A stretch of 64,000 bases of DNA from Candidatus Zixiibacteriota bacterium (GTDB lineage: Bacteria; Zixibacteria; MSB-5A5; GN15; FEB-12): NCBI GenBank assembly GCA_022571845.1, contig JACZXB010000010.1:62001-126000 (forward strand), in the 5' to 3' direction. The translations under genes and the position numbers were made by a program. Positions 5,631-61,783 of the stretch are shown piece by piece; the stretch's first letter is position 1, and each line of letters starts with the position of its first letter. The notes under the pieces are model-generated. The model was not told where the DNA came from and made no database searches. It saw nothing but the letters and a program-made list of their open reading frames with translations.

Positions 5631-7874
5631 TTAATTCTGCGCATCGACAACTGCAATCGAAGCCATGTCAACTATCTGGGTCACATCCAGCGTCCGGTGC
5701 AAAACATGCACCGGCTTTGACAGCCCCATCAAAATTGGTCCGATGGCAGTAAGCCCGCCCATTCTCTGCATCAGCTTGTAGGCGATATTGCCGGAATTTA
5801 AGTCGGGGAATATCATCACGTTAGCCTTGCTGTTGAGCTTTGAGAAGGGAAAATGTTCTTTCATAAACTCCGGCATCAGAGCTGTATCTGCCTGCATTTC
5901 GCCGTCCACAATCAGGTCGGGCACTTTTTGGTGAAGTATCTTTACTGCTTTAGCCACTTTACTGGATTCGGCTAGCCTGACAGATCCAAAATTTGAAAAT
6001 GAAAGCATAGCAATTCGTGGCTCAATATCATAACTCCTGGCTACTTTGGCCGCATTGATGGCAATCTCCGCCAGTTCTTCGGCTGTCGGGTTAATATTAA
6101 CCGTGGTGTCGGCAAACATATAAACTTTGTCCTGACTGACCATGGCAAACAGACCCGATACCCGGGTAACTCCCTCTGCCATAGGAATAATTTCAAGAGC
6201 CGGACGGATAGTAGAGGGATAATCTGAGCGTATTCCCGAAAGAAGCGCATCACAGTCGCCCGACATAAGCATCATCAGGCCGTAGTAAATGGGAATAGTC
6301 ACTCTGCGGTTAGCGCGCTCCATGGTAATACCGCGCCTGCCTCTCAGCTCAAAATATTTTTTGGCATATTCTGAAAGTTTTGATGATTCACTGGGGTTGA
6401 TTATTTCTGCTCCGGCTAATTCCAACTGGTACTCTTTGGCAACTTTGGCAATGCGCTTTTCGTCCCCTAAGAGAATCGGCCTGGCAATGCCTTCATCAAG
6501 TAGATTCTGGCAAGCCCGTAGAACCCGCCGCGACTCACCCTCGGGAAATACAATACGCTTTGGCTCAGACTTTGCCTTTTCTGCAATTGATCTCATAAGA
6601 GTTCTGCCGCTGCCGATTCTTTCCATCAACTCCTGCTTGTATTCTTCTAAATCCAGCTCTCTGCCGGCTACGCCGGATTTCATAGCTGCCTCAGCTACCG
6701 CTGCTGCCTCCCAGGTCAAAATACGGGCGTCGAACGGTTTGGGGATAAGATATTCACGACCAAATTTGAAGCGCTTTCCGCCATACGCTTTGGCTACTGC
6801 CGGCGGAACTTCTTCTTTGGCAAGGGCCGCCAATGATTTTACAGCGGCAATTTTCATCTCTTCGTTTATGGTCGTAGACCAGGTGTCGAGCGCACCGCGA
6901 AAAATAAAGGGAAAACCGAGCACGTTGTTGACCTGATTAGGGAAATCAGATCTGCCGGTGGCAACTATTACATCTTTGCGGGCAGAGACCGCATCCGGGT
7001 AGGTGATTTCCGGATCCGGGTTGGCCATAGCCAAAACTATTGGGTCTTTGGCCATTGACTTGACCATTTTTTGAGTGACCAGATCCTTGACGGAAACACC
7101 TACAAAAACATCAGCTTCTTTCATAGCCTCGACAAGAGTGCGGGCATCAGTTTTTCTGGCGAACTCAGCTTTGTATTTGTCCAGACCAGATTCGCGGCCT
7201 TGGTAGATGACACCTTTAGAATCGACCATCAGCAAATTTTCGTGCTTCACTCCCAGCGAGCAATACAATTTGGCGCAGGCGATTCCGGCCGCCCCGGCGC
7301 CGCTGAAGACGACTCTGATTTTATCTATATCTTTGTTTACAATTTCGAGGGCGTTTAACAAGGCTGCTGCTGAAATTATGGCGGTTCCGTGCTGGTCGTC
7401 ATGGAAGACCGGTATGTTGAGCGTATTCTTGAGAGTTTCTTCAATATAGAAACAATCAGGCGAGCCGATATCTTCGAGATTTATACCGCCAAATGTCGGC
7501 GCCATTAGCTGACAGCACTTAATAATCTCATCCGGGTCTTTGGTATCAAGTTCGATATCAAAAACATCAATGTCTGCAAATCTCTTAAATAGAATGGCTT
7601 TGCCTTCCATAACCGGCTTGGCGGCAGCAGGACCGATATCCCCCAGACCTAAGACTGCCGTACCGTTTGATACCACGGCTACCAGGTTGCCTTTGGCGGT
7701 ATATTTGTAAACATCCGACGGGTTACGGTATATCTCCATACATGGCTCTGCCACACCCGGAGTATAGGCCAGCGAGAGGTCGTATTGGGTGCTGCATGGT
7801 TTGGTCGGGTTAATTTCTATCTTTCCGCGTCTGTCGCGGCTGTGATATTCTAAGGCATCTCTTTTCGATATCAT
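5631..7874 (-). CDS. maeB: NADP-dependent malic enzyme with C-terminal phosphotransacetylase domain
   Basis: Oxidative decarboxylation of malate to pyruvate, linking the TCA cycle to gluconeogenesis and NADPH supply. The 747 residues match the MaeB architecture: N-terminal malic domain ([26 protein letters not shown]), an NAD(P)-binding domain with [17 protein letters not shown], then from about residue 425 a phosphate acetyltransferase-like domain ([15 protein letters not shown]). In other MaeB proteins that last domain has a regulatory, acetyl-CoA-sensing role rather than a catalytic one. The ATG at 7874 has AAGGAG eight bases upstream. The gene stands alone, with a repeat-rich spacer upstream. 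Confidence 0.97.
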
Positions 7875-7988
7875 TCTATCTGCTCCTTAAGGCCTATATT
7901 TCATTCTGGAAGAACAACTGAAATAGCATAGGGGTCTTTGACTGTTAAATCAAATTTGAAATTAGCGGTCAAAATTGCTTCCGTCTAT

Positions 7989-8042
7989 TGTAGGTCAGGA
8001 CTTTTAAATCCTGAGCGAAGCCGAAGGGCTTGCAGTCCTGAC
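7989..8042. repeat. Intergenic repeat, TGTAGGTCAGGA family, copy 1
   Basis: Begins with TGTAGGTCAGGA and ends with GTCCTGACA, so the ends form an inverted repeat around a short interior that itself contains hairpin-forming sequence. The same opening 12-mer occurs at 8214, 12228 and 51032. It lies in the 415-base spacer between maeB and the broken protease gene, where I see no gene. Confidence 0.6.
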
Positions 8043-8064
8043 ATTGGTATCAAGGCAGAAGTTC

Positions 8065-8159
8065 TGTCATTGCGAGCCCTGATAAAATCAGGGTGCGGCA
8101 ATCTCGCCTTAAATTACTGAGATTGCCGCGTCCCGACAAAGTCGTGACTCGCAATGACA
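8065..8159. repeat. Nested inverted repeat of the TCATTGCGAG...GCAATCTC type
   Basis: Outer arms TGTCATTGCGAG (8065-8076) and CTCGCAATGACA (8148-8159) are perfect inverted repeats. Inner arms GGCAATCTC (8097-8105) and GAGATTGCC (8119-8127) are also perfect. Two copies of a TCATTGCGAG-N-GCAATCTC unit therefore sit head to head. The same unit recurs at 51133-51250. From memory, this short repeat is scattered in many unrelated bacterial genomes. Confidence 0.75.
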
Positions 8160-8213
8160 ATCAGCAACTGAATATATTCAGCCATTACACTTCTTTGCTT
8201 CGAAGCTCAGTTT

Positions 8214-8283
8214 TGTAGGTCAGGAACCTTGTGTTCCTGACTAATTGAAAAGGCAGAACCACTAAAGGGCATGGTGCCCTACA
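8214..8283. repeat. ~70-bp intergenic repeat with two hairpins (copy left of the protease gene)
   Basis: Starts TGTAGGTCAGGA and ends GGTGCCCTACA, giving TGTAGG/CCTACA terminal inverted repeats. Inside, GTCAGGAAC pairs with GTTCCTGAC and GGGCA with TGCCC. The element at 12228-12298 is a direct, closely similar copy. It ends only 6 bases before the stop of the protease C-terminal fragment. Confidence 0.8.
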
Positions 8284-8289
8284 ATTATA

Positions 8290-10227
8290 TTATGGACAAG
8301 GCCCCGGAGGCGGCCCTCCTCGGAAGATAAAGTCGACCAGATAGGTTAGGTCAAGTATATCTGCTGAATCTCCATCACCGTTGACATCGCTTTCGTTAGG
8401 GCATCCTCCCGGATTACCACTGCCTCGAAAGATGAAATCAACAAGGAAAACCAGATCAACGATATCGACATCGTTTCCCTCGAGGTTTAAATCGCCTTGT
8501 ATGCCAACACAGCAGCAGGCATCTCCGATGCCGTCACCATCCTGGTCTGCCTGACTGGGATTGAATCTTGTCGGACAATTGTCGCAACTGTCAGGAACTC
8601 CGTCACCATCGTTGTCCGTGTCGTACGGAACGTAAACAAAGGCCTTCCCAGAACTTTCGGGGTTAGTTGAACTCAGCGGCGCTCCAATAATAATATCCCT
8701 CTGACCATTGGACCCAATGTCGATGGCGCCGTCAACACTCATTCCGAAACCTATATCGGAGTTATCTCCATACAGCGTGTGCAATATCGATCCGGTCTGA
8801 CCGGAGAGAATAGAAACTTGAGCGGAGCCCGGTACACCAAACACCACATCATCAAAAGAGTCTGCGTCGAAGTCACCAATGCTTGAACCTGACCAGCCGA
8901 GATAGGCGTTCACCGATGATCCGCTAAGCTGGTGAAGAAGCGCCCCGGTTTGCCCTGAATAGATATAAAGCTTGCCAGCGTCCTCTCCTCCGGCGTCATT
9001 GAATGGAGCGCTTACGAAAAGGTCATCGAAGCCGTCGTTATCCACATCGCCGGCACCGGCCACGTCATATCCGAAATGGTCGCCCGCAGACTCTCCTGTG
9101 AAGATGTAAAGCGGGGTTGAAGTCAGCCCGGAGTATACATAAGCTCGGCCTGCGTTTAGTCCACCCGCATCGTTATACGGCGCGCCAACAATGTAATCGG
9201 CGACTCCATCATTATCGACATCTCCTGCCCCCGCCGCAGACGCTCCAAACCAATCGAGCGCACTTTCTCCCGTCACTGTCTGAAGAATTGATCCGGTCTG
9301 ACCTGAATACACGTTGACGAAACCGGGATCTGATTCCAGAGGTTGTGGCGCCCCGGAAAGATAATCAGGTATTGTGTCTCCGTCGATATCACCTATTCCC
9401 GCTACTGACGTGCCTAATAAATCAAAATCGGAAATTCCGAAGTATCTACGATCAGCGATGCTTGTGAAGCGCGTAATCGGGAAGGGACCTGGACCGCCGT
9501 AAAAAACAAAGGTGGCGCCTAACGTCTGAACGAATGGCACGGCTGAGTAAAATTTCTGACCAACAATGTAATCATCATAGCCATCGAGATTCACATCCCC
9601 TATCCCGTCCACAGACCACCCGAATTGGAAATAAATGCTAGAAACTATCTCGTACAGGAGAGATCCATCGTCGCCTGAATAAACATACGCTCTTCCGGTG
9701 AAATCGGTGGCGCCATCTCCCCAAGCTCCGACAATTATATCATCGAATCCGTCATTATTGACATCGCCCGCGCCGCGCGCTTCTCGCCCAAACTGATCAA
9801 AATCCTCCGCCCCCGAGAGCGAAAGATATAAACCTACACATTCGCAGGCGTCTCCGGTTCCATTCAGATCGCTATCCTCCTGACCGGGATTGGCAATGCC
9901 CGGGCAGTTGTCTGACTGACCACAAACACCGTCTCCGTCAAGATCGTTTGTGGGATCATTCGGACAGACGTCACAAGCGTCGCCCAATCCATCAGAGTCA
10001 GTATCTGTTTGTCCGGCATTGCTAATCGTTGGGCAATTATCGCAACCGTCATTATGCCCATCACCGTCGCTATCCGCTCCGGAGGCCGCCAGAACGGCCG
10101 CATACGCGTTGACGTAGCCGTGGCCATAGAAATCATCCCGACCGGGGACGCCCAGGTCGGTTGCGCTACAGCGAAGAATATCTTCCACTTCAGGCGCAGT
10201 CAGTGTGGAATCCACAGAGAGAATCAA
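8290..10227 (-). pseudogene. C-terminal part of a broken secreted subtilase: FG-GAP propeller, thrombospondin type 3 repeats, dockerin-like end
   Basis: Continuation, in the same reading frame, of the subtilase fragment at 10261-11700. Upstream of the TTG at 10227 the frame reads FSSPFVAGVAA back to the TAA at 10261-10263. It therefore contains the end of the S8 fold, Asp-rich thrombospondin type 3 repeats (DSDGLGDACD), seven FG-GAP repeats (for example GAGDVDNDGFDD) that would make a full beta-propeller, another calcium repeat, and a C-terminal dockerin-like pair (DIVDLVFLVDFIFRGG). The region is intact with no further stops. Translation from TTG 10227 would produce no signal peptide, so on its own this piece is unlikely to be functional. 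Confidence 0.85.
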
Positions 10228-10260
10228 GGCCGCTACGCCCGCGACAAACGGTGAGGAGAA

Positions 10261-11700
10261 TTAAGACCCAGCTCTAAAACCATATCCACTATTCTTGTCG
10301 GTGGTATAAATGTATGCACCGGGGGCGCAAAATTCAAGATCAGGTCCGTAATTGCTGAAGAATACTCTGTGTACATGGTTATCAAGAGCGCCAACTGAAT
10401 TCACAGAAGAGAGATTACCCGGATAAGCAACAGTACTCACATCCGAGTTTCCTGCGGCTTTAAAATGAATCATCCCGCCCGCGTAGGTGGAGGCATACTT
10501 GTCATCTAGCGCGCTTGATTGTATTGTGGCAGTGCTGTTAGTTGTAATACGAACCCCCTCCGATTCGGCGTAGGCGAGAGCGTCAACAAACCAACTGCTC
10601 TGAAGAAAGTCTCCACGTACGCGAGCAGATATAATGCGGCAGTCGGTAGCTACACCGACAGTCCCGAGCCCATTGTTTATCTTAGCTGTGACCACACCTG
10701 CAACTCTCGTGCCGTGGGTTTGGCTGGCAGTACCGCCAGGCAGGTTTTGACCGGTAAAGTCCTGCCCCGGTAGCTGGTTAATGTCCGGGTGATCCTGCTG
10801 AACGCCGTTATCAAAAACCAAAATCTTTATGGATGAGTCCCCGGTAGTTATCTGCCAGGCTTGTGGAAGATCTGCGTCAACTCCCGGCGTCCCACCAAAT
10901 TGCGACACATGATTCGCGCCCCAAAGATTTGGAAAGCCAGGGTCGTTAGGAATGAGACCAATCGCAGTTTCGATTCCATCAAAATTTCTATCTCGATTAG
11001 TAGCCGGATTTGGAGTTGAACCGGGATCAACCGTCCTCTGAGTCTGGGTCACTTCATCATCAGAAAGAGCCGAGAACCGAAAGTCCGGCTCGGCCCATAC
11101 GATTTGATTTTGTAATGACAATTCATTCGCTTGCGCCAATACCTCAAAGCCATTTTTCGAGGAACTCCGCAGTTTGTACGCCCCTGTTAATCCGCCGAAA
11201 TCCGTTTCAACAATTTCCAGATCAGGGGCGAGAGACTTCAGGAGAGCGTCGGAGTCCCGAATATGCTCAGGCTTAAAGCGAAGAAGTATATCAGGGGTCA
11301 CAATTACCCAGTCAAAATTTGGCAAACTAAAGACGGGAGAAACAAATTCAGACTCCGATATCGTTGAGAGTTTTTCAATGCGTTTCCCTACATCTTTAGA
11401 CGACAGGGCCGGAGACAACTCAAGCATGCTCCAACGGGTTTTGCCCAAGTCAATTTCCGTTGCCGATTCATTCAGTACGCCTGCTACTTTTTCCGCAAAT
11501 CCATCTGACTTCGTTTTCGCCGATCTCAGAACTGCGAGTCTTCCATTCAATAGTTCAAAGGAAATCTCTTTCCCATTGTAGATGTAATGGGTTGGGTAGC
11601 TCCGCTCGTTTTCGGCAGCGAGAGTACCAGTTATATTTAGGACTAATAGTAGAGTGAAGATAACAATGGATAACATAAAGTTGAGATTAGAGAATTTCAT
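10261..11700 (-). pseudogene. N-terminal part of a secreted subtilisin-like protease (S8), truncated at the catalytic serine
   Basis: Signal peptide at 1-29 (ends TGTLAA), a propeptide-like region to about 250, then the S8 domain. The catalytic Asp is 297 (ILVFDNGVQQDHP), the His is 329 (HGTRVAGVV) and the oxyanion Asn is 418 (FKAAGNSD). The frame stops at codon 480 with TAA (10261-10263). Aligned with the family motif GT-S-(M/F)-(A/S)-SP, the sequence reads GS-stop-FSSPFVAG, so the stop replaces the catalytic Ser; one base change from TCA would explain it. The same frame stays open for 656 more codons. The full gene would be 8290-11700, about 1,136 residues. It is most likely a very recent nonsense mutation or a sequencing error. 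Confidence 0.88.
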
Positions 11701-12012
11701 AATACTCTCTCTTTCTGAGGCTCACCCCATGTCCTCAGTCAGGCTACAAAGGGCGATTCTTGATAAAATATCAGTAGCCCAATAGATTCGTAATAAAAGA
11801 ATTTACTCTCCAATTTGCGCAAAACGGGTCTTTTTGTCAAAGCTTTTTCGTAGGCGGCCCGCCACGGCGGGTTCTCTCTTGACAGACCTGTTGCAAATTA
11901 ACTCGCAAATCGCAGCAAAATACTCCACTAACCTTGATTAGTATGAACAGAGAACAATTTGACACCGAAAATCGAACTCAAAATTTCTACAATACTTATT
12001 ATGCGAAAAGTA

Positions 12013-12097
12013 AAATATGACAAAACGAACCCATTTCGGCCCACCAGCCGGAGGAAACTCAAAAAAAGATGTTAAATATAACAAAACGAACCCATTT
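12013..12097. repeat. Pair of 24-bp direct repeats
   Basis: Two near-identical 24-mers at 12013-12036 and 12074-12097 (one mismatch) share the core ACAAAACGAACCCATTT and start 61 bases apart. Both are followed by GGCCC within a few bases. They do not lie in a convincing reading frame. Confidence 0.65.
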
Positions 12098-12159
12098 ATT
12101 GGCCCTGGCGGATTTGCCGTAATGCGGTGAACCATGGTCGCTTGCAAAGAAAGGATGGA

Positions 12160-12204
12160 TTCCCAGCTTTAGTCCCGAGCGAAGACTCGGGGCCTCCGCT
12201 GGAA
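12160..12204. repeat. Nested hairpin element
   Basis: Outer arms TTCCCAGC and GCTGGAA and inner arms CCCGAG (12174-12179) and CTCGGG (12186-12191) form a cruciform-capable element. It resembles the GGATTCCC...GGAA(T)GAC repeats often seen between bacterial genes. Confidence 0.5.
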
Positions 12205-12227
12205 AGACAAAAAGGGGCGCAGTTTCC

Positions 12228-12298
12228 TGTAGGTCAGGAACCTTGCATTTCTGACATTTAAGAAAAGGTAGAACCGCTAAAGGGCATGGTACCCTACA
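12228..12298. repeat. ~70-bp intergenic repeat with two hairpins (copy right of the protease gene)
   Basis: Starts TGTAGGTCAGGAACC and ends GGTACCCTACA, in direct orientation relative to the copy at 8214-8283 and roughly 85-90% identical by eye. It keeps the same terminal inverted repeats and the GGGCATGGTACCC hairpin. The two copies bracket the 3.4-kb broken protease gene. Confidence 0.8.
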
Positions 12299-12321
12299 AA
12301 TTCTGCCCTACTTTGCTCTTG

Positions 12322-12735
12322 TTAGTTCTTCCCGCACCTGCCGCAGGCGCTGATTTCGTCGGTCATGCCTTCGACCGCAATATGAGCGAGTATCTCGGTG
12401 CCGGAATCACTGGAGCGAATAGCTTCTACCTGACAATAATTTTTCACCGCGCCAGACTCCCGGCCGACGTACATCGATAGCCCGGCTCTGACAGCTAAGA
12501 AATGCTTAATCAGCAGATACTCTTCTATTTCATCATCGGTTTGGTGCTGGTCCAAAAACTGGCCGATATCGGCGCTTAAGATATCTTCGATTTGCTTGTT
12601 TTCCAGCCAGTCGATAATCATTGATTGATTTCCGACGGCGCCGCCGCAGCTTAGTTTGCGCAGAGCGTAGCGGCTGACACGGTCTTCGGTGTCGAGCCTG
12701 ATTCTTAAGTGGTCTGTTATATCCTTACAGGGCAT
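12322..12735 (-). CDS. Conserved cysteine-containing protein, possibly NifU/IscU-like
   Basis: A 137-residue soluble protein. The stretch RYALRKLSCGGAVGNQSMI around Cys30 resembles the CGG/CGD cysteine loop of IscU/NifU N-terminal Fe-S scaffolds. Further cysteines are Cys3, Cys101 and a C-terminal CGRC pair (131 and 134). Four or five such cysteines in a small acidic protein suggest metal or Fe-S binding. I do not recognise an exact family member with known function. It stands alone between a repeat-rich spacer and the rhomboid gene, which ends 57 bases upstream on the same strand. Confidence 0.65.
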   Translation of the reverse strand: MPCKDITDHLRIRLDTEDRVSRYALRKLSCGGAVGNQSMIIDWLENKQIEDILSADIGQFLDQHQTDDEIEEYLLIKHFLAVRAGLSMYVGRESGAVKNYCQVEAIRSSDSGTEILAHIAVEGMTDEISACGRCGKN

Positions 12736-12791
12736 ATCTTAAAGATACCATTTAATTGCTATTTGTAAACCGTTTCTACGCTTATCAAAAC

Positions 12792-13514
12792 TCAGTTCCA
12801 GTCCATACGGTAAATTCTCTGTCCCGAAGATGAGGTAGGGCCGCGGCGCCCATACAGCTTGGTCAGGAATTTAAGTAGCACAAATCCAAACAGGAAGCCG
12901 CCTACATGAGCCAGCCAGGCGACCCCGCCGCCGGTAGAGCTGCCGCCCAGCGACATAAATAGCTGCATAAAAAACCAGATACCCAGTACAATCCTGGCCG
13001 GAATAGTGATAAACTGGATAAAGAAAAATATGATAAGCACTGTTATACGCGCCTTAGGATGCAAAACAATGTAGGCGCCCATCGCTCCGGCAATAGCTCC
13101 CGAGGCTCCGACCAGTGGAACTTCGGAACTGGCACCAAACAAAGTATATAATGCGATAGCAGCCAATCCCGACAAAAGATAAAAGAAGACGAATTTTACG
13201 TGCCCAAAATAGTCTTCAACGTTATTCCCATATATCCACAGAAACAACATATTGCCAATCAAATGCAGCCAGCCGCCATGCATAAACATCGAGGTAAACG
13301 GAGTCAGGTAAGTCGAAAACGCCAGTTCGGGTGTTACTTCGACAGCATGCACCAGCTCTACCGGTATGTAGGCGAATTTATAAGTGAATTCCAGAAACCC
13401 TTTAGAACCTAAAAGAATGCTGAACAGAAAGACAACAGAATTAATTACTATTAGAGCAATCGTAACTACCGGTTTTCTGATTGTCGGGACATCATCTTTT
13501 ATTGGTATAAACAA
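12792..13514 (-). CDS. Rhomboid-family intramembrane serine protease
   Basis: Multi-pass membrane protease of 240 residues that would cleave transmembrane substrates within the lipid bilayer. It has six or so hydrophobic segments, the catalytic Ser138 in GASGAIAGAMGAY, His203 in LAHVGGFLFG, and the upstream HxxxN pair (His84, Asn88, in GGWLHLIGN). All three catalytic elements are present, so activity is expected. The start is a TTG (13512-13514) with GGAG seven bases upstream. It lies 27 bases downstream of the M23 peptidase gene and may share its transcript. Confidence 0.93.
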   Translation of the reverse strand: MFIPIKDDVPTIRKPVVTIALIVINSVVFLFSILLGSKGFLEFTYKFAYIPVELVHAVEVTPELAFSTYLTPFTSMFMHGGWLHLIGNMLFLWIYGNNVEDYFGHVKFVFFYLLSGLAAIALYTLFGASSEVPLVGASGAIAGAMGAYIVLHPKARITVLIIFFFIQFITIPARIVLGIWFFMQLFMSLGGSSTGGGVAWLAHVGGFLFGFVLLKFLTKLYGRRGPTSSSGQRIYRMDWN

Positions 13515-13541
13515 ATAACTGCTCCGTTAATATCCTGGTCA

Positions 13542-15824
13542 TCACCGTTTTTTAGACTTTGCTCTGATCCAGAATTTAAGATACTTCTCAACTTTATTAC
13601 CTACTCTATCGGTAACAACTATGGCCAGATGATGCTCGCCTGCTTCCAGAGACTTAATCGGCCCGGTCTGGCAGATAAAAGTTTCCGGGTCATATTCGGG
13701 AATCATCCAGTCGCCGTCGAGTTTTATCAATATATTTCTGTCATCTTCAAAACCGGACAATGTGTCAGATAGTTCAAACCTTATGGGCAGATTGGCATTT
13801 CGATATTTCTTGTTAGCTCTGACATTCAGGTTTTTGATTGAAGGGGGGTCATAATCTATGACCGCAGCAAATGATCCTCCACCGATAGATTTTGCCCGCA
13901 AAGTATTATCGTTTCTTTCATTTTCAAGCCAGACCCATTTATTTTCTTTCTTGTCCAGCCAGCAGATTCCGCTCAGATCGTTTTTGGGCAGCTCTCCAAT
14001 CATTTCAATACTAACTTCAAATTCCTCTCGGCAGAGAAACGCTTCCGGCAGAATTTCATAATGATCGGAGTTTAGCCGTAGTGCAGATTTCCTAATTATT
14101 TTGTTAGTTTTAATTTGAATAAACAGCGGTTTGTAGAGACTGTTTTCTTCAAATGAAACTTCAAACCTGTCACCGGTTTTGATAGTCCGCTGGCCATAAC
14201 CAACAGCGTAGGCATGGAAATTTTCAACAGTGACACTCTTGTAATCAGGAGAAGCATTGAGAACAACTTCGATTTTAGTAATTGTTGCAAGTTTAGGAGA
14301 GGGAGGAATGAAACAACGGTAATTTTTCAGATTAAACATTCTGGCTGGCCAGATTCCCAACAAGGTGCTGTCATTGTACAGCTTTACCCAGGCTTTACTG
14401 GCTCCTTTATTAGTTGAAAGAATGTCGACCCAGAGACCTTCGTCGTCAACAGTTGCTACAACTTCTTTGGCAGATTTAGAGAGCCGGTCCAGAATTCCGT
14501 GATAGATATTATCCCGGATTAGACCGCCGCTTTGTGTAAATATGAATAGTCTTAAAACATATCCCAGGCGGATTCTGAAAGAGGTCTTGCAAATCAGGCT
14601 GCCATCATCACTATACTCTGTCTTGATTTTCTTGGATGCATGCCATTTGTTTTTTGATGCTATGAAAGTAACCACTGAATCAATCCCAAAGAGCTTGTAC
14701 TCTCTTATTGGTTTGAAATAGAAAAAAGTGCTGCCCGAATCTGAAGTAATTGTAGAATCCAGATGGAAAATATTTTCAGCCGGACCATATATGAACTTAA
14801 AACCAAGTTCTGAAACATTGCCACAGCAATCTTCGGCCACAACTCTGGCAGACCGAACTCCGGGATTATCCGTTCCTTTTCTACCGATATGTCCTTTAGA
14901 GCCATTTGGGGATTTGCTGCCCTTAAATTGATTCCATCTGTCATTAAACAAGCGGCGAACTTTCGGACGATCCTCAACAAACTCGCCATAATCATATTCG
15001 AAATTGACAGATTGTTCAGTTGCATAGTTCAGAGTATCAAAAAGCGATTCATAGTAAAGCTGGTCATCTATATAAAGCGACAGCTTTCGTACAGATCTTT
15101 TCATACCGCTGGGCCTCATCAGGTCATAGCAGTCTGTCATTATCCCGAACGGCCGGTTAAAATGCAAAACTGTGTCGAGAATATACTTGCCGGCTGACTC
15201 TGTTTTTCTAACGTCGTAGAACATCTTTCTGACTCCGCTGTCAAACATCGAAGTGTCATCCAAAATCTTGAAACCAACCCTGGTAAACATTGGCCGGACA
15301 TCGTCGCTCAGGCTGAAGCCATGAGAAAGCGGATTAAGGGGCTGATTGTCGGGGCTGCGTTTTTCAAAATGAAGATGTGGCGCCCCGGCGCCGGTTTGTC
15401 CGCTTTGGGCTATCAACTGGCCTTTTCTAATTTTCAGGCTCTCAGCTGGAGGATAGAGGTCAACAAAGTAACGTTTTGAACTTAGCTGGGCTGTTTTAAC
15501 ATAGTTATCTATAGAAGGGATGAATTTAGCCAAATGAGCAAACACGTAGTAATAGCCGTCATTTCCTATAATATATATGACTTTGCCGTAACCCTCATAT
15601 GAGGTTCTTACCCGCCAGACATAGCCTTCTACCGGAGAAAAAACAGCTTCTCCGGCTGCTCCGCCGGTTCTAATATCAACCCCGCTGTGAAAACGGTTAG
15701 CCCTCATATCCCCAAATCCCGAAGCCAGATCTATCTTTCTCTTTACCGGCCAGTCAAGAGTTTGAGAATATCCTGATCCAAAGAGCATCAAAAAGAATAG
15801 AACAATTGAAAAAATTTGCTTCAT
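13542..15824 (-). CDS. Secreted M23-family metallopeptidase with large C-terminal region
   Basis: LytM-type zinc peptidase expected to act on peptidoglycan cross-links in the periplasm, or as an activator of amidases. A signal peptide covers residues 1-20 (ends GSGYS-Q). The M23 domain follows directly, with zinc ligands His46 and Asp50 (NRFHSGVDIRTG), His97 (VFAHLAKF) and the HLH at 150-152 (APHLHFE). All are conserved, so it is probably catalytic. The remaining ~600 residues are beta-rich, with Ig-like or carbohydrate-binding-like segments and no motif I recognise; the final part (residues ~650-750) reads like an Ig-type domain. The ATG has AAGGA upstream. Confidence 0.9.
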   Translation of the reverse strand: MKQIFSIVLFFLMLFGSGYSQTLDWPVKRKIDLASGFGDMRANRFHSGVDIRTGGAAGEAVFSPVEGYVWRVRTSYEGYGKVIYIIGNDGYYYVFAHLAKFIPSIDNYVKTAQLSSKRYFVDLYPPAESLKIRKGQLIAQSGQTGAGAPHLHFEKRSPDNQPLNPLSHGFSLSDDVRPMFTRVGFKILDDTSMFDSGVRKMFYDVRKTESAGKYILDTVLHFNRPFGIMTDCYDLMRPSGMKRSVRKLSLYIDDQLYYESLFDTLNYATEQSVNFEYDYGEFVEDRPKVRRLFNDRWNQFKGSKSPNGSKGHIGRKGTDNPGVRSARVVAEDCCGNVSELGFKFIYGPAENIFHLDSTITSDSGSTFFYFKPIREYKLFGIDSVVTFIASKNKWHASKKIKTEYSDDGSLICKTSFRIRLGYVLRLFIFTQSGGLIRDNIYHGILDRLSKSAKEVVATVDDEGLWVDILSTNKGASKAWVKLYNDSTLLGIWPARMFNLKNYRCFIPPSPKLATITKIEVVLNASPDYKSVTVENFHAYAVGYGQRTIKTGDRFEVSFEENSLYKPLFIQIKTNKIIRKSALRLNSDHYEILPEAFLCREEFEVSIEMIGELPKNDLSGICWLDKKENKWVWLENERNDNTLRAKSIGGGSFAAVIDYDPPSIKNLNVRANKKYRNANLPIRFELSDTLSGFEDDRNILIKLDGDWMIPEYDPETFICQTGPIKSLEAGEHHLAIVVTDRVGNKVEKYLKFWIRAKSKKR

Positions 15825-15924
15825 ATTAATCCTTATATATAAAAATATCTTGCATATTGTACAATTCTATGGTCAATCCGATAATATAAAGCAACTATTT
15901 TGTATAATTGATACTTTATCGGTA

Positions 15925-15952
15925 TTGCCAAATTGGACAGTTAAAGTATATT
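15925..15952 (+). promoter_or_regulatory. Probable sigma-70 promoter for the PPIase gene
   Basis: TTGCCA (15925-15930), 16-base spacer, TATATT (15947-15952). It lies in the 196-base divergent spacer, about 70 bases before the ATG at 16021. Confidence 0.45.
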
Positions 15953-16020
15953 AACTGGCCGCCTGTCGATATCAATAGCAGCCGGTAAATTTTTGGATTT
16001 TACTTAAAGGAGTTTTTTAG

Positions 16021-17874
16021 ATGTTTAAGGCACTTCGCAGAATGATTGTTCCGATAATCATAATAGTTCTATTCTTTTTTGCAGGTATGATCGTATTGGA
16101 ATGGGGCATGGGTTTTTCCAGCCGCCAGACTTTCCAAAATACGAATCTTGCAGCTATCATAAACGGGGAGGAAATCACCTGGCAGCAGTACAATCGGACA
16201 TATAACAACTTAGCACAGGCTGAAATTCAAAAAGCCCCTGACCTGGAACTCTCGGAAAATCAGAGAAGACAGCTTCATCTGAATGCCTGGCAGCAGATAG
16301 TGAATGACCGGCTCTTGACGCAACAGGTACAGAAATTCGAGATTTTTGTTTCTGCAGAGGAAATATATTCATTTTTGAAATACAGCCCGCCGCCGGAGCT
16401 TCAGGCCGCACCGAGCTTTCAGACCGATGGCAACTTTGATTACCAGAAATATATCAACGCCATGGCGGACCCGCAGGCCGAAGCCTTTTGGGCTTCCATT
16501 GAACCAATCATAATAAGCGAAATTGAAAAACTAAAGATTCAGGAAATGGTGATTCAAGCTGCTCACGTAAGTGAGGACGAAGTCAAGCGCGCTTACATTG
16601 AAAAGTTTGAAGAAGTAGACCTTGGGCTTGTAAATGTTTCTTTTGCAAGATTTTCCAAACCTCCTCCGAAAAGCACCGAAGATGAAATGCGTGCTTTTTT
16701 TGAAGAACGTCAGGACGATTATTATTTGGATGAAAAAAGGAGTCTGAATATTGCCATATTGGAAAAGTCTCCCAAACCTTACGACTGGGAAATTTCCTAC
16801 AATCAGGCTGTAGCAATTTATGACTCAATTCAAGCTGGTTCAGATTTTGCAGAAATGGCCAGAAAGTATTCTGATGATGTTACTTCAGAAGATGGCGGTG
16901 ACCTGGGCTGGTTCCCGGCCGGCCAAATGGTCCCCGAGTTTGACAAGATGGTCTTCAGTATGCAGCCAAATGATGTAAGCGAACCAATTAGAACACAATT
17001 CGGCTGGCATATAATCAAGGTTCACGAAAGAAAAGAAGTAAATGAAATCCCTCGCCGGAAAGACGAAGCTGAATTGGTCAAAAAGGCACGTGCTTCGCAT
17101 GTTTTGATTAAGACTGATGTTTCTCAGGAAACCCTGGATGAGCTATACAATCGACTTGAACGGTTCTATACAGCAGCAGTTAGCTCAGGTTTTGAGAAAG
17201 CCGCCCGTGACTTGAAAATGCCGGCAAAGAGAACCACCACTTTCTTCCGCGGAAAAAACATCCAGTTCATTGGCAGTAATCCGCAGGTGGATAAATTTAC
17301 ATTTGAAAGTGAGCTTAACGAAATATCTGAATTGATGGAAAACAAGTCTTCATTTTTTGTGGTGCAGCTGTCTGAAATTGATTTAGCCGGCCCGGCTGCA
17401 TTCGAAGATGCAGAAGATAAAGTAGTGCTTGATATCGTCCGGTACAAGGTTCTGACATTATGTATGGATACAGCCAATGCCATCTGGAATGAGTTTAAGG
17501 CCGGAACGCCCATTGAAAAAGCTGCAGAAAATCATGCCGAGAATATTGAAATTTTAGAATCAGTTTCACGTACCGGCTGGGTACCCCAGCTCCGCCGGGA
17601 TCCAGAATTAATCGGAGCTGCCTTTAGCATGGAATCCGTAGGTGATATGACTCCGCCAGTGAAATTCGGCCAGGGGGTTGCCATTTTTAAGCTGATCAAC
17701 AAAACTACGCTCGACTTGACCGATTATAACAGCAAAAGAGATTCGATATACACGGCAATTCTTAATTATAAGCAGCAGAACATATATCAGCTTTGGTTCG
17801 ATGATTTAATAAGTTCATCAGAAGTAGTTAATAATGTCGAAAAAGAACTATTAGAAAATCCTGATTTTCTTTAG
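16021..17874 (+). CDS. Membrane-anchored peptidyl-prolyl cis-trans isomerase (SurA/PpiD type)
   Basis: Periplasmic foldase that helps outer-membrane and secreted proteins fold. One transmembrane segment at about 8-29 anchors it, followed by a SurA N-terminal-like chaperone domain (about 40-190) and a parvulin rotamase domain (about 225-345). The parvulin signatures are ARKYSDDVTSEDGGDLGWF, MVPEFDKMVFSM and FGWHIIKV. A second, weaker parvulin-like or helical region fills the C-terminal part to 617 residues, as in PpiD. The ATG has AAAGGAG nine bases upstream. It is divergent from the M23 gene and converges with the ETF oxidoreductase. Confidence 0.92.
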   Translation: MFKALRRMIVPIIIIVLFFFAGMIVLEWGMGFSSRQTFQNTNLAAIINGEEITWQQYNRTYNNLAQAEIQKAPDLELSENQRRQLHLNAWQQIVNDRLLTQQVQKFEIFVSAEEIYSFLKYSPPPELQAAPSFQTDGNFDYQKYINAMADPQAEAFWASIEPIIISEIEKLKIQEMVIQAAHVSEDEVKRAYIEKFEEVDLGLVNVSFARFSKPPPKSTEDEMRAFFEERQDDYYLDEKRSLNIAILEKSPKPYDWEISYNQAVAIYDSIQAGSDFAEMARKYSDDVTSEDGGDLGWFPAGQMVPEFDKMVFSMQPNDVSEPIRTQFGWHIIKVHERKEVNEIPRRKDEAELVKKARASHVLIKTDVSQETLDELYNRLERFYTAAVSSGFEKAARDLKMPAKRTTTFFRGKNIQFIGSNPQVDKFTFESELNEISELMENKSSFFVVQLSEIDLAGPAAFEDAEDKVVLDIVRYKVLTLCMDTANAIWNEFKAGTPIEKAAENHAENIEILESVSRTGWVPQLRRDPELIGAAFSMESVGDMTPPVKFGQGVAIFKLINKTTLDLTDYNSKRDSIYTAILNYKQQNIYQLWFDDLISSSEVVNNVEKELLENPDFL

Positions 17875-30255: not shown

Positions 30256-30282
30256 GCATTATATTAGCTAAATAGTTCAAAG

Positions 30283-30307
30283 CCGCCTTTTTTGAGGCGG
30301 TTTTTTT
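30283..30307 (+). terminator. Rho-independent terminator after the ferredoxin gene
   Basis: Stem CCGCCT (30283-30288) / AGGCGG (30295-30300), loop of six, then seven T. Confidence 0.88.
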
Positions 30308-30405
30308 GTGCCTATAAATTGCTGCCTCTTTTCTCCTTGCAGGTGAAAATCTGCCACGCCAAAAAGTAAATTCGGGCTGCAAAACAGCCGATAATATAGA
30401 GATAG

Positions 30406-31662
30406 ATGACGAAACGCCTGGAGTGCATACGCTTGCATATTTTATATTCGAAAAAAGGATATTCTTTGATTGAATTGATGGTTGTCATAATCATCATTTC
30501 GATAATTGCAGCCGTGTCTGTAAAAACTTTAATGACCGCCAGCGATACTGTCCGCACTGAGCGTTCCAAAGATGAAATGGACGAACTGGCTTTTGCAGTA
30601 GCCGGTAACCCTGATTTGGTTTCAGGCGGAACAAGAACAGATTTTGGATACGTCGGCGATGTCGGCTCTATGCCAGGCAGTCTCGATGCGCTGGTAATAA
30701 ACCCGGGCGGATTCGCCACCTGGAACGGGCCATATTTGAAAGACGACTACCTGGCTGCATCAGGCGGCGCTAATTCTGAATTCAAAGTCGATGATTGGGG
30801 TTCCGCATATATCTACTCATCAGGGGTAACGATAACTTCGACCGGCAGCGGACAGGCTATCACCAGAAAAATTGCAAACTCTGTAAGCGACTTACTTTAC
30901 AACAGGGTGGCTGTTACCGTAACAGACATAAACCAGAACCCTCCCGGACCAATCTACAAAGACTCAATAAATGTCCTGCTGACTTATCCTAACGGTACTG
31001 GCGGAACGGTTACCATAGCCAGGGCACCGGCCTCCGATGGTTTTGTTCAGATTGATTCAGTTCCAATTGGGCTTCACCGCTTGAGAACAGTTTATCTGCC
31101 TGACAATGATACCCTGAGGCGAAAAGTTGCAGTTAACCCGGGAGAACTGGCCTTAGTCGATGTTCAGCTCTTTAGTAACCCCTGGGGTTCTGGAGGCGGT
31201 GCTGGTTCCGGCACCGTCATAATCAGACCCGATGGAGTTGGAAATTATACCCAGCATACCAGCAGCGGCTGCAGCAGTAATTGGCAATGCGTCAACGACG
31301 TTACCTCGGACGGCGATGGCTCCTATGTAATAATAGGCTCCGGACCATGGGCACAGGATTCTTATCAGGCAGAAGACCCGAGTGGCAGCGGTGCCATCGA
31401 TAGTATTGTTATTTATATTTTAGTACGCTCTACCGGCAGCGGTCAGTTGGCACGAACTACGCTGGTTGTCAATGGCAATCTCTACACCGGCGGCAATAAT
31501 AACCTTAATAGCTCACCAACCTACACAGTCTTTTCAACAATCTATGCAACAAACCCGGACACTTCGTCTCCATGGACCTGGGCTGAGCTAAACGATATTC
31601 AAATTGGAGTAGGACTAAAAGATCAAGCCAGATGCACTCAGGTCTGGGCAGAAATTTTTTGA
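30406..31662 (+). CDS. GspG-like pseudopilin with C-terminal beta domains, paralog 1
   Basis: First of four tandem paralogs. The prepilin cleavage site is KKG|YSLIELM (Glu5 kept), followed by a hydrophobic helix. Residues ~50-160 resemble the major type II secretion pseudopilin GspG: DFGYVGDVGSMPGSLDAL, NPGGFATWNGPYL and DDWGSAYIYSSG, the last matching the calcium-loop/W-G-x-x-Y region. A second module follows (PPGPIYKDSINVLLTYPNG to IGLHRLRTVYLPDNDTL), like a carboxypeptidase-regulatory beta-sandwich. A final ~140-residue domain (SNWQCVNDVTSDGDGSYV ... WTWAELNDIQIGVGL ... TQVWAEIF) looks like a jelly roll. The total of 418 residues is about three times a normal pseudopilin. The role is unknown. 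Confidence 0.8.
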   Translation: MTKRLECIRLHILYSKKGYSLIELMVVIIIISIIAAVSVKTLMTASDTVRTERSKDEMDELAFAVAGNPDLVSGGTRTDFGYVGDVGSMPGSLDALVINPGGFATWNGPYLKDDYLAASGGANSEFKVDDWGSAYIYSSGVTITSTGSGQAITRKIANSVSDLLYNRVAVTVTDINQNPPGPIYKDSINVLLTYPNGTGGTVTIARAPASDGFVQIDSVPIGLHRLRTVYLPDNDTLRRKVAVNPGELALVDVQLFSNPWGSGGGAGSGTVIIRPDGVGNYTQHTSSGCSSNWQCVNDVTSDGDGSYVIIGSGPWAQDSYQAEDPSGSGAIDSIVIYILVRSTGSGQLARTTLVVNGNLYTGGNNNLNSSPTYTVFSTIYATNPDTSSPWTWAELNDIQIGVGLKDQARCTQVWAEIF

Positions 31663-31680
31663 TCCAATTAGGTAATTTTA

Positions 31681-32940
31681 ATGAAGAAATTCAGTTTCAA
31701 TAATCAAGCCGGTTTTTCTCTTATAGAGTTAACTATTGCGCTGATAATCATCTCAATACTGATAGGCGTGGCGCTGCAGCAGATGACCTCGGTTATGGAC
31801 GACGGCCGCCAGATCAAAACAGAGCGCGAAATGGAAATACTGGCAAATTCCATTGTAGGCAATCCTGACTTGACCGGTAACAGCGGCAGAACAGATTTTG
31901 GCTATGTCGGAGATGTCGGCAGTTTCCCGCCCAATATCAGCGCACTATACACCAACCCCGGCGGCTATGCCAGCTGGGACGGACCGTATATACCTGTTGG
32001 TTTTGTGCAGGATTCAACGGGTTTAAAAACGGATGAATGGGGAGCGGCTTATAATTATTCCGGCGGAGTTACAATTTCATCTACCGGCAGCGGTACCACA
32101 ATCAGTAAACAAATAGCCAGAGCAGCATCGGATTACCTGCTTAATACTGTCTACGGAGATATCAAAGACAACTCCAACTTTCCACCCGGCAACACCTATC
32201 AGGATTCTGTCGATATAGTGATAACAATTCCCAACGGAGCCGGCGGCTCGCAGACAAAACTTTACCATCCCGACTCGGTTGGTAATTTCACTCTCGATTC
32301 TCTGCCGGTGGGAAGGCACCCCTTGAGAATTATCTATACCCCGAATGTTGATACAATTTTTAGATACCTGACAGTCTATCCCCGCCACAAAGACAGCAAA
32401 TCATTTAGATTCTTTGGCAGCTACTTCTCTGGCGGCGGCGGTGGAGGCGGTGGTGGTGGCTGCGACTCCAGCGGCGTATTAATTTTGCGTCCGAACGGCA
32501 GCGGCTCAATTACAAGTTTGAGCACGGCCGGCTGCGGCAGTAACTGGCAGTGCGTAAGTGAAGTGACCTCAGATGAAAACGCTACCCGCCTGGAGAGGGC
32601 CTCTAACTCTTATGCAACTGACGTTTACGCAATGGAAGATATTCCCTTCACCGACTGCGATATTTTACGGGTAACTGTTTCTTACAGGGCACGCAAAGAA
32701 AAAAATACAGGAGCGGCTATGCCGGTTATCTATGTTGCAGGTGTGGAGTACCAGGGCACTGAATCTTCGCTTACAAATTCATATAGTAACTACAGCTACC
32801 AGTGGAATTCCAATCCCAACAGCGGCAGCGCCTGGACCTGGTCGGATATCGTAAATCTCGAAGCCGGTCTGGCCCTTAAAGGTCAAAACGCAAGTTTCCC
32901 TGCTTATGTTACACAAGTATGGCTGGAGATAGAGTATTGA
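31681..32940 (+). CDS. GspG-like pseudopilin with C-terminal beta domains, paralog 2
   Basis: 419 residues with the same three-part design as its upstream neighbour. The cleavage site is QAG|FSLIELT. The conserved core reads RTDFGYVGDVGSFPPNISAL, NPGGYASWDGPYI and DEWGAAYNYSGGVTISS. The beta module ends IGRHPLRI-like (VGRHPLRIIYTPNVDT). A glycine stretch (ten or so Gly after FSG) then links to the terminal domain SNWQCVSEVTSDENAT ... WTWSDIVNLEAGLALKG ... TQVWLEIEY, which is clearly homologous to that of paralog 1. It starts 18 bases after paralog 1 and its stop overlaps the start of paralog 3 by one base. Confidence 0.8.
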   Translation: MKKFSFNNQAGFSLIELTIALIIISILIGVALQQMTSVMDDGRQIKTEREMEILANSIVGNPDLTGNSGRTDFGYVGDVGSFPPNISALYTNPGGYASWDGPYIPVGFVQDSTGLKTDEWGAAYNYSGGVTISSTGSGTTISKQIARAASDYLLNTVYGDIKDNSNFPPGNTYQDSVDIVITIPNGAGGSQTKLYHPDSVGNFTLDSLPVGRHPLRIIYTPNVDTIFRYLTVYPRHKDSKSFRFFGSYFSGGGGGGGGGGCDSSGVLILRPNGSGSITSLSTAGCGSNWQCVSEVTSDENATRLERASNSYATDVYAMEDIPFTDCDILRVTVSYRARKEKNTGAAMPVIYVAGVEYQGTESSLTNSYSNYSYQWNSNPNSGSAWTWSDIVNLEAGLALKGQNASFPAYVTQVWLEIEY

Positions 32941-33698
32941 TGAGAAATAAAATGAATAAAAGAGGCTTTACTCTCATCGAAATTGTTATCGTGCTGGTTA
33001 TCTCAGCGATTCTGGCAACTGTAGCTATGCGCTCTGCCTTTTTCATTTCGGAAACTGCCAAAGAAGAAGAAACCAAGCAGGAACTCGAAATGCTGCAGTT
33101 TGCCATTGTCGGCAATCCGCTTTTGTATAACGACAACACCAGATCCGATTTTGGTTATGTCGGCGATGTCGGTTCTATGCCGCCTAATCTTGATGCTCTC
33201 TTTTCCAATCCGGGAGGCTACGCCACCTGGAACGGTCCCTATATCAAGAGACGCTTTGAACAAGACCCTGATGGCTACAAAAAGGATGCCTGGGACGCTG
33301 TCTACACCTACGGCGGCAACTCCGTTACTTCAAGCGGCTCAGGTACAAACATAGTCAGGGAGTTTGGAACCAGCTTAAACGATTTTCTATTAAACGGAGT
33401 TGATGGAGTTCTGCTTGACCAAGATGGCACTCCCCCGGGAACAGTTTATCGCGACTCTATAACAGTCCGTCTGATAATCCCCAATGGCAGCGGCGGCTAC
33501 TCTTCGCTCTTTACTCAGCCTGATATCGGCGGATTTTTCTCTTTTGAATCTGTTCCGATAGGCAACCACGATATTGAAATCGTCTACGGACCAACCAATG
33601 ACACCTTAAAAAGATTCGTGTCGATTGTCCCCAGATCGAGGCACTACGGCGAATATTTTCTATCTCAAAATGTCTGGTATGACACAACCGGAAGTTAA
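32940..33698 (+). CDS. GspG-like pseudopilin, paralog 3 (short form)
   Basis: 252 residues from the ATG at 32940, which overlaps the upstream TGA (ATGA-type coupling); an upstream in-frame codon at 32919 lies inside the previous gene. The cleavage site is KRG|FTLIEIV. The core has RSDFGYVGDVGSMPPNLDAL, NPGGYATWNGPYI and DAWDAVYTYGGNSV, so the W-G of the other copies is W-D here. The beta module (PPGTVYRDSITVRLIIPNG ... IGNHDIEIVYGPTNDTL) is kept, but the terminal jelly-roll-like domain of paralogs 1 and 2 is absent. Confidence 0.8.
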   Translation: MRNKMNKRGFTLIEIVIVLVISAILATVAMRSAFFISETAKEEETKQELEMLQFAIVGNPLLYNDNTRSDFGYVGDVGSMPPNLDALFSNPGGYATWNGPYIKRRFEQDPDGYKKDAWDAVYTYGGNSVTSSGSGTNIVREFGTSLNDFLLNGVDGVLLDQDGTPPGTVYRDSITVRLIIPNGSGGYSSLFTQPDIGGFFSFESVPIGNHDIEIVYGPTNDTLKRFVSIVPRSRHYGEYFLSQNVWYDTTGS

Positions 33699-33707
33699 AG
33701 AAACAAA

Positions 33708-34436
33708 ATGATGCAAAAACTAAATTCAAGCTCCGGTTTTACTCTGATAGAGCTGGTCATAATTATCATCATCATTGGTATAGTCAGCGCAGTTGCTATG
33801 GTCAACATGACCTCATCTTTTGACACCGCCAGACATGAGCATACCAAAGCCGAGCTTGATGCCCTGGCCTTTGCTATAGTCGGCAATCCGGCGCTTTACA
33901 GTAACGGCGCTCGTTCTGATTTTGGCTATGTCGGTGATATTGGCAGCTTGCCGCCGGACTTAAGCGCCCTGGTCGCAAACCCGGGCGGTTATGCCACCTG
34001 GGATGGTCCGTATATAGAAAGCGGAGCCGGTTACAATCAGGATGGCTGGGGAATTAACTACCTGTACAGTGGCACATCGATTCGCTCGACCGGCTCCGGC
34101 GCCAATATCGATAAAATGGTTGCAGCCAGTTCGCTGTCGCTGCTTTCAAATTCTGTAGCGGGCTACATCGTTGATGCCAGTTTAACTATGCCAGGCGCTG
34201 TCTATAAAGATTCGCTGGCGCTCAGGCTAACATTCCCTGACGGAACCGGCGCCATGACAACTGCTGTTACAACTGTTGATAGAAAAGGAAATTTTTCGTT
34301 TTCAGGAATCCCGATTGGAAATCATCGGCTGACCGCTATATATCTACCGGATAATGATTCGACCACAATTTCTGTTTCAATTACGCCGGCTTCTGTTACA
34401 AAAATTGACATTGTCTTTCCCCATGACCTCTGGTAA
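33708..34436 (+). CDS. GspG-like pseudopilin, paralog 4 (short form)
   Basis: 242 residues, 9 bases after paralog 3. The cleavage site is SSG|FTLIELV. The core reads RSDFGYVGDIGSLPPDLSAL, NPGGYATWDGPYI and DGWGINYLYSGTSIRS, very close to GspG's WG-x-x-Y region. The beta module MPGAVYKDSLALRLTFPDG ... IGNHRLTAIYLPDNDST closes the protein, again without the terminal domain. It is the last gene of the array; the next gene is convergent 28 bases away with no obvious terminator. No ATPase, platform protein, secretin or prepilin peptidase is near. Confidence 0.8.
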   Translation: MMQKLNSSSGFTLIELVIIIIIIGIVSAVAMVNMTSSFDTARHEHTKAELDALAFAIVGNPALYSNGARSDFGYVGDIGSLPPDLSALVANPGGYATWDGPYIESGAGYNQDGWGINYLYSGTSIRSTGSGANIDKMVAASSLSLLSNSVAGYIVDASLTMPGAVYKDSLALRLTFPDGTGAMTTAVTTVDRKGNFSFSGIPIGNHRLTAIYLPDNDSTTISVSITPASVTKIDIVFPHDLW

Positions 34437-60583: not shown

Positions 60584-61021
60584 TTAAAGATTGACGTCGT
60601 TGATCGTATTCAGCAAGTTACCGTTGTGGTCAATCGTCCAGGTGTCAATAGCAGCATCGTCATCCAGGTTAGCAGTTGCAGTACAGAGAAAGGCGATATC
60701 TGTAGCAATAGTCATGTCGTATTGATAAAGGGCAGTGACCATGATTTCTACACCAATCTCCGGGAAAAGACCTCCACCAGGAGCCACGCTGACACCGGCA
60801 TCACCATATCTGGCTGGTAAGACTGCGACGCTCTGACGAAAGGTGCGCTGCATTGTATAGACCTGCTTCAGAAGCTGTTTGGCTTCTGACTGCTTGGAAC
60901 GGGTAGTAGCCTGCATGAATCTCGGAATGGCCAGAGCAGCCAAAATACCGATAATCACGACTACGATCATCAACTCGATAAGGGTGAAACCCTTCTGATG
61001 ATTGTGGAATTTTGTGAACAT
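60584..61021 (-). CDS. Type IV pilin, copy 1
   Basis: 145 residues, the usual size of a small type IV pilin. The short leader ends KG|FTLIELM with Glu5, followed by the long hydrophobic helix MIVVVIIGILAALAIPRFMQ. The C-terminal part is globular, ending DDDAAIDTWTIDHNGN and NTINDVNL; it contains one Cys and so has no disulfide loop. It is paralogous to the pilin at 61361. A sigma-54 promoter (61091-61105) and GGAGG ribosome site precede it. Confidence 0.9.
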   Translation of the reverse strand: MFTKFHNHQKGFTLIELMIVVVIIGILAALAIPRFMQATTRSKQSEAKQLLKQVYTMQRTFRQSVAVLPARYGDAGVSVAPGGGLFPEIGVEIMVTALYQYDMTIATDIAFLCTATANLDDDAAIDTWTIDHNGNLLNTINDVNL

Positions 61022-61360: not shown

Positions 61361-61783
61361 TCAGGTGGTTACGTCATTGATAGTATTAATCAGATTGCCT
61401 GTCTGGTCTATTGTCCAGGTATCTATGGCGGCATCATCGTCAATATTGGCAGTAGCGGTACAGATAAAAGTATTGGCAGTTGCTGCAATTGTGTAAACGT
61501 AACGGGCGTTGGACATAATCTCTATCCATATTTCACTAAATGCCATAGGAGCGGCTGCAGAGGCCGGTCCTCCGGGGATATAATATGTATTAAGCTGAGT
61601 TGACTGCCTGTAGGTGCGTTGATTCACGTAGATTTGTTTCAGAATGAGCTTCGCCTCACCCTGCCTGGTCTTGGTCGTACTTTGCATAAACCTTGGTATA
61701 GCCAGGGCAGCCAGAATCCCGATAATCACAACAACTATCATCAATTCTATCAGCGTAAAACCCCGCTGGTCAGAACCTGCCAT
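61361..61783 (-). CDS. Type IV pilin, copy 2
   Basis: 140 residues, a close paralog of copy 1. The leader is RG|FTLIELM followed by the same hydrophobic helix and a C-terminal domain ending DDDAAIDTWTIDQTGN and NTINDVTT. The middle (TRQGEAKLILKQIYVNQRTYRQS) parallels copy 1. AAGGAG lies nine bases before the ATG. It has its own terminator downstream and its own -24/-12 promoter upstream, so the two pilins are separate transcription units under the same kind of control. Confidence 0.9.
   Translation of the reverse strand: MAGSDQRGFTLIELMIVVVIIGILAALAIPRFMQSTTKTRQGEAKLILKQIYVNQRTYRQSTQLNTYYIPGGPASAAAPMAFSEIWIEIMSNARYVYTIAATANTFICTATANIDDDAAIDTWTIDQTGNLINTINDVTT

Follow-up and report, generated by a model that had tools for sequence, protein, structure and literature searches.

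What is the function of pilin-like proteins with large added domains when no gene for an assembly ATPase, platform or secretin accompanies them? The question is raised by a locus of a Candidatus Zixiibacteriota bacterium, within a stretch of 64,000 nucleotides that was analysed as a whole (the window), where a preliminary description had noted four pseudopilin-like genes lacking these components; their absence was confirmed among the ORFs of the window. The reading that we favour, with a probability of roughly two in three, is that the four products are modular subunits with an accessory role in a zixibacterial type IV filament machine of T2SS/MSH-like kind, which is encoded on another contig (C21) of the genome, and that they display binding domains on it.

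The four ORFs are intact, adjacent and arranged head to tail on the forward strand at 30406-34436, as had been described. Gene 1 (g1, position A1, 30406..31662) encodes a protein of 418 aa composed of a prepilin site, a GspG-like core, a transthyretin (TTR)-like module and a jelly-roll domain, and gene 2 (g2, position A2, 31681..32940) a modular pseudopilin of 419 aa with the same four parts. The products of g3 (position A3, 32940..33698, 252 aa, without the terminal domain) and g4 (position A4, 33708..34436, 242 aa) contain the prepilin site, the GspG-like core and the TTR-like module. The intergenic gaps are 18, −1 and 9 bases; the first and last values had been given previously, and the supposed gap of 0 between g2 and g3 proved to be an overlap of one base (ATGA). 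The upstream neighbour of the array is a ferredoxin gene, and a predicted intrinsic terminator on the forward strand, consisting of a hairpin and a T run, lies in the interval at about 30279..30304 (−16.1 kcal/mol, z −3.8, for the fold of 30268-30312); it was not picked up by a consensus scan at this site. Since this predicted terminator precedes the array and the gene downstream of g4 has the opposite orientation, the array is probably a transcription unit of its own. Comparison of g1-g4 with three near relatives showed 90-98% amino-acid identity and dN/dS values of 0.08-0.26, which, together with the intact copies in relatives, rule out that these are decaying genes. Elsewhere in the window, at 8290-11700 of the reverse strand, a subtilisin-like protease ORF is followed after a short gap by an in-line FG-GAP/dockerin ORF, and the two are possibly a single gene split by a stop or a frameshift.

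The prepilin site reported for all four proteins was borne out by the PF07963 (N_methyl) model, which scored 25.9-34.6 bits against a cut-off of 21.2, and reads G|(F/Y)(S/T)LIE at each start. Glu5 is present in all four, as claimed, and 160 of the 164 scored members of the family have it. In the AlphaFold2 model of g2 (mean pLDDT 82.2) an N-terminal helix (residues 14-59) precedes the core. The genome encodes two A24 prepilin peptidases (on contigs C16 and C14), one or the other of which would cut each array protein after the Gly.

The likeness of the core to GspG was tested with a profile built from eleven cores and, as reference, two plasmid-encoded GspG proteins whose annotated genes belong to T2SS loci. 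The hhalign comparison gave a probability of 99.2 (E 6e-20) over 103 columns, taking in the L.AL, WxGPY and DxW..Y landmarks, which upholds the original assignment, and a plasmid GspG matched g4 in a tblastn search (E 4e-3). The PF08334 model was above cut-off in g4 only (21.2 vs 21 bits), g1-g3 remaining sub-threshold at 13.1-16 bits, and a search of the whole genome with this model returned nothing at E 0.001; thus the Pfam model by itself would miss the array family. Sequence searches of the PDB gave one insignificant match (E 0.05) for the core without its helix and, for the core with the helix, only the N-terminal helices of pilins, GspG among these. The four proteins scored 21.3-42.5 bits with TIGR01710, below its equivalog cut-off of 88.85 bits; the C-terminal calcium-binding motif of GspG was found in none of 199 family members in its strict form and in two of 199 with a relaxed pattern; relative to GspG the array core carries an insertion before the GDVG segment; and Pro22 is missing from g1-g4. 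On these sequence comparisons the core is therefore GspG-like and no GspG equivalog.

The added beta module was likewise recognised, as a TTR/carboxypeptidase-regulatory-like module in each of g1-g4. It is best delimited in g2 (32143..32409), where the AlphaFold2 strands at residues ~155-243 form a beta-sandwich, and lies approximately at 30898..31179 in g1 (by alignment to g2), 33393..33659 in g3 and 34155..34418 in g4, all on the forward strand; in g4 residues 184-236 gave a sub-threshold match to PF13620 (24.4 vs 32.3). The g2 model also contains a low-confidence linker and a C-terminal beta domain. The Gly-rich linker is seen in the sequence of g2 at 32425..32466, with low pLDDT at residues 254-259. 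The terminal domain that had been put at ~140 residues in the first two genes measures ~150, follows the Gly-rich linker and occupies 31204..31659 in g1 (residues ~267-418; match to phrog_6368, E 6.5e-7) and 32470..32937 in g2 (residues ~264-419).

Among the Foldseek matches of the g2 model in the PDB, those that agreed roughly in length with the C-terminal domain were CBM6, CBM16 and CBM4 chains, with TM-scores of up to 0.62 by target length, the matches being allotted to this domain by length as the tables give no query coordinates. A phage protein fitted the domain better (TM-score 0.80 over 166 columns), and the isolated domain matched the C-terminal part of phrog_6368 and phrog_2448 (E 8e-9 and 1.5e-7) when it was sought in other proteins. 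Relatives of the jelly roll were found in viral contigs, some of their genes lying shortly downstream of a capsid-like gene; a tblastn search of named phages was without a match at E 0.001. Foldseek with an in-operon relative yielded, for the most part, chains with a generic beta-sandwich and low TM-scores. By the model, the C-terminal domain of g1 and g2 would be a jelly-roll binding domain, the fold suggesting carbohydrate as what is bound. The only other copy found in the same genome is a weak one (E 1.4e-5; locus L198, G000 C6:124229-124663) in a protein of 380 residues whose gene neighbours look phage-like. Two further loci (L124, 6365-8476; L147, 11172-13115) encode long proteins of the array type in which a LamG or jelly-roll domain is preceded by repeats, ISTTGSATINGTSFDEEDLVDYDP for example, that look propeller-like.

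The array family was found in 107 of the 132 genomes of the phylum, and in the bacterium's own family the array commonly has pdxS/Rrf2/Fe-S genes on one side and, on the other, a saccharopine-dehydrogenase-like, a vWA-like and a polyprenyl-synthase-like gene in a block. Outside the phylum, a GTDB scan with two peptide patterns gave loci that were zixibacterial or carried vague or FCB-group/Calditrichota labels. In a tree of 120 cores, g1-g4 fall into four groups with SH-aLRT values of 98-100 for A1, A2 and A4 and 93 for A3, and they represent four ancient orthologous positions; a recent tandem duplication is ruled out by the occurrence of these orthologous groups across many genera. When the C-terminal domains were counted, with positions allotted by best BLAST match, A4 lacked one in 39 of 39 cases and A1 in 27 of 38, A2 had a jelly roll in 17 cases, another beta domain in 16 and LamG in 4, and A3 mostly had another beta domain (30) or none (12). 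The LamG assignments in three relatives, at the same positions, are firm (Pfam E 7e-32 to 7e-20). Judged from these architectures, jelly-roll, LamG and other C-terminal domains are exchanged between fixed positions, and the genus of the window departs from the usual pattern, with a jelly roll on A1 as well as on A2 and a bare A3. One chromosome (CP070756) contains two separate partial arrays (L114 and L142), which suggests splitting or duplication of the set.

A search for type II/IV machinery elsewhere in the genome, which had been recommended at the outset, led to a T2SS/MSH-like operon on contig C21. It encodes a MshEN-type ATPase, a platform protein, a MshA/PilA-like pilin, a short pilin of 155 residues and a secretin, in addition to PilM/PilN-like, PilO-like and GspC/PilP-like proteins, all three just under or below the Pfam cut-offs. 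The GspE and GspD equivalog models stayed below their cut-offs. The MSH pilus model comprises mshA, E, G, L and M (PMC6668835); equivalents of the first four are present, and no MshM-like protein was recognised in the operon, no dedicated MshM model having been used. The C21 short pilin has the same core as the array proteins (hhalign 99.6, E 2e-24). In sister families of Zixibacteria, array-type genes occur in one to three copies inside many operons of the C21 type, flanked by the genes for the short core pilin and the PilM-like protein; these in-operon homologues all fall into one group of the core tree (SH-aLRT 97), and their C-terminal domains are mixed. With a machine on C21 and homologues inside that operon in sister families, an orphan array without machinery is ruled out. 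In the bacterium's own family the array is detached from the machine operon and expanded; as the tree is unrooted, the order of this change is left unpolarised.

The genome holds other filament systems which the array could conceivably serve, namely a T4aP (contigs C1, C14 and C2, and a PilA in the window) and a T2SS-like system on C16. Two PilA-like major pilin genes lie within the window, 26 kb from the array (60584-61021 and 61361-61783, reverse strand), beside a gene for an NtrC/PilR-like response regulator (61880-63292, reverse strand), and are probably part of an ordinary type IV pilus. The C16 operon (L021, ~6179-16869, in G000), distinct from that on C21, has a secretin, an ATPase, a platform, a prepilin peptidase and H/I/J/K-like pilins. 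Service to one of these systems is nevertheless improbable: C16 and C2 have minor pilins of their own, the operons that contain array homologues are of the C21 type, and the distribution across genomes points the same way. A strong match to the C21-type pilin (E below 1e-40; 132 genomes, unlisted ones being allotted from totals) was obtained in 98 genomes, all 98 of which have the array family, and in not one of the 25 genomes that lack it. Nine genomes, mostly incomplete assemblies, have the family without a strong pilin match. Within six mixed families presence and absence of the two agree, one of these cases resting on a 52%-complete genome, and the Fisher test of co-occurrence (p 9e-20) ignores relatedness and is descriptive only. 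Linkage does not explain the co-occurrence, since genomes of the same family that consist of a single contig have the array and machine loci at a great distance from each other (218 kb in G025 and 1.7 Mb in G026, for example). Seven genomes without the family, 93-99% complete, have 2-7 T2SSE-family ATPases each, and such genomes retain these ATPases, PilB/PilT-like pairs included; it is therefore the C21-type machine, rather than type IV filaments at large, with which the family is associated.

The place of the array proteins in that machine was considered from the residues of the helix. Pro22, a conserved residue of type IVa pilins and T2SS pseudopilins that is tied to helix melting on assembly (PMC5059446), occurs in none of 164 scorable family members, and in 11/11 and 11/12 sequences of the two C21 machine pilins. 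The lack of Pro22 and the bulky linked domains favour accessory subunits that sit at the tip or close to it, or are sparsely distributed along the fibre, and are presumably of low abundance; the hydrophobic helix with Glu5 would dock each array protein into a fibre composed mainly of the Pro22-bearing C21 pilins. The same two features would also suit membrane-tethered adhesins that use the prepilin helix as an anchor and do not polymerise, but the conservation of Glu5 and the co-retention with one machine make this most improbable. The array proteins could also serve the C21 machine as its tip-initiating complex, in place of GspH-I-J-K, instead of decorating the shaft. No H, I, J or K-like genes were seen in the C21 operon, there are four conserved array positions, and a precedent exists in S. 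sanguinis, where HIJK is swapped for a set that includes modular pilins (PMC10191384). Against this, known tips are capped by a subunit without Glu5 (PMC10191384), whereas this residue is nearly universal in the family, and many genomes have a single array-type gene in the operon. A strict HIJK-type tip is disfavoured by the nature of such caps, and we regard the tip complex as unlikely.

For accessory subunits of the C21 machine, the TTR-like module and, in g1 and g2, the flexible Gly-rich linker with its jelly roll would be held out for a ligand that is most likely either a glycan or a protein that bears glycans or is secreted. As the C21 machine is intermediate between T2SS and MSH, both adhesion and secretion are possible readings, and the filament may act as a surface fibre or as a secretion piston. 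A secretion pseudopilus whose decorated subunits recognise specific exoproteins and push them out, for example MXAN_6640-type metalloproteases, which are candidate cargo, is a minority possibility. It would agree with the GspC-like domain match in the C21 operon (26.8 bits vs a cut-off of 27), with the MXAN_6640-type protease that adjoins C21 and with the protease-like genes that flank arrays L092, L123, L124 and L180. Most arrays, however, are without protease neighbours, two of the three proteases of the genome are on other contigs, and the swappable LamG and CBM-like domains fit adhesion at least equally. Genes for MXAN_6640-like HExxH metalloproteases number five beside the L124 array and three in the genome of the window, where one (L022, 3248-5293) lies beside C21.

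Should the favoured reading be correct, a little-known phylum gains a surface or secretion machine that is concrete, occurs throughout the phylum and has named subunits; among the papers searched, none linked pseudopilins, or type II secretion and pili, with Zixibacteria. The same carriers with differing grafted domains constitute a natural series for testing the rules of binding-domain display on type IV filaments. The distribution indicates that an accessory pilin set may occupy a separate locus for long evolutionary times and yet stay tied to one machine, and annotation by neighbourhood only would miss such a detached set. A bolder reading, less likely than not, is a class of type IV filament peculiar to this phylum, where a GspG-derived and TTR-extended set of four positions replaces the HIJK minor pilins as an exchangeable display unit, with swapped binding domains on orthologous carriers and a conserved locus of its own apart from the machine.

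In the preliminary description a fibre or pseudopilus with differently decorated subunits was considered new. GspG-like decorated subunits are well supported and their likely machine has been found on C21, but decoration itself has already been described: over 1,200 modular pilins, representing 264 architectures, are known, and the frequent grafts include those of the PF13620 and LamG types (PMC8179133). What is new is that the array has four conserved positions, that it lies apart from the one machine to which it nevertheless stays faithful, and that its positions exchange domains. Compared with GspG, the major pseudopilin of the T2SS, the array core shares WxGPY and DxW..Y within an alignment of 103 columns, and differs in having neither calcium motif nor Pro22, in the insertion before GDVG and in the extra beta module. 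The MSH pilus system resembles the C21 machine in its MshEN-bearing ATPase and in its compact single locus, which lacks a prepilin peptidase; the C21 secretin scores higher as PilQ than as MshL and a MshM-like gene was not recognised. Like the HIJK minor pilins of T2SS and T4aP, the array proteins are four accessory subunits kept as a set, although all of them share one GspG-like core and Glu5, with no Glu5-less cap. A close likeness in architecture is offered by the modular type IV pilins, such as PilB and PilC of S. sanguinis (PMC8179133), in which a small pilin module is joined through a linker to a bulky non-pilin binding domain, and whose list includes PF13620-type and LamG/ConA-like grafts. 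In the array, too, a pilin module is fused to a domain that is not specific to type IV filaments (a jelly roll shared with phage proteins, or LamG in relatives); it differs from those pilins in the chain of three parts (core, TTR-like module and jelly roll) built on a GspG-like core, and in its four orthologous positions, the swapping of domains between them and the location apart from the machine.
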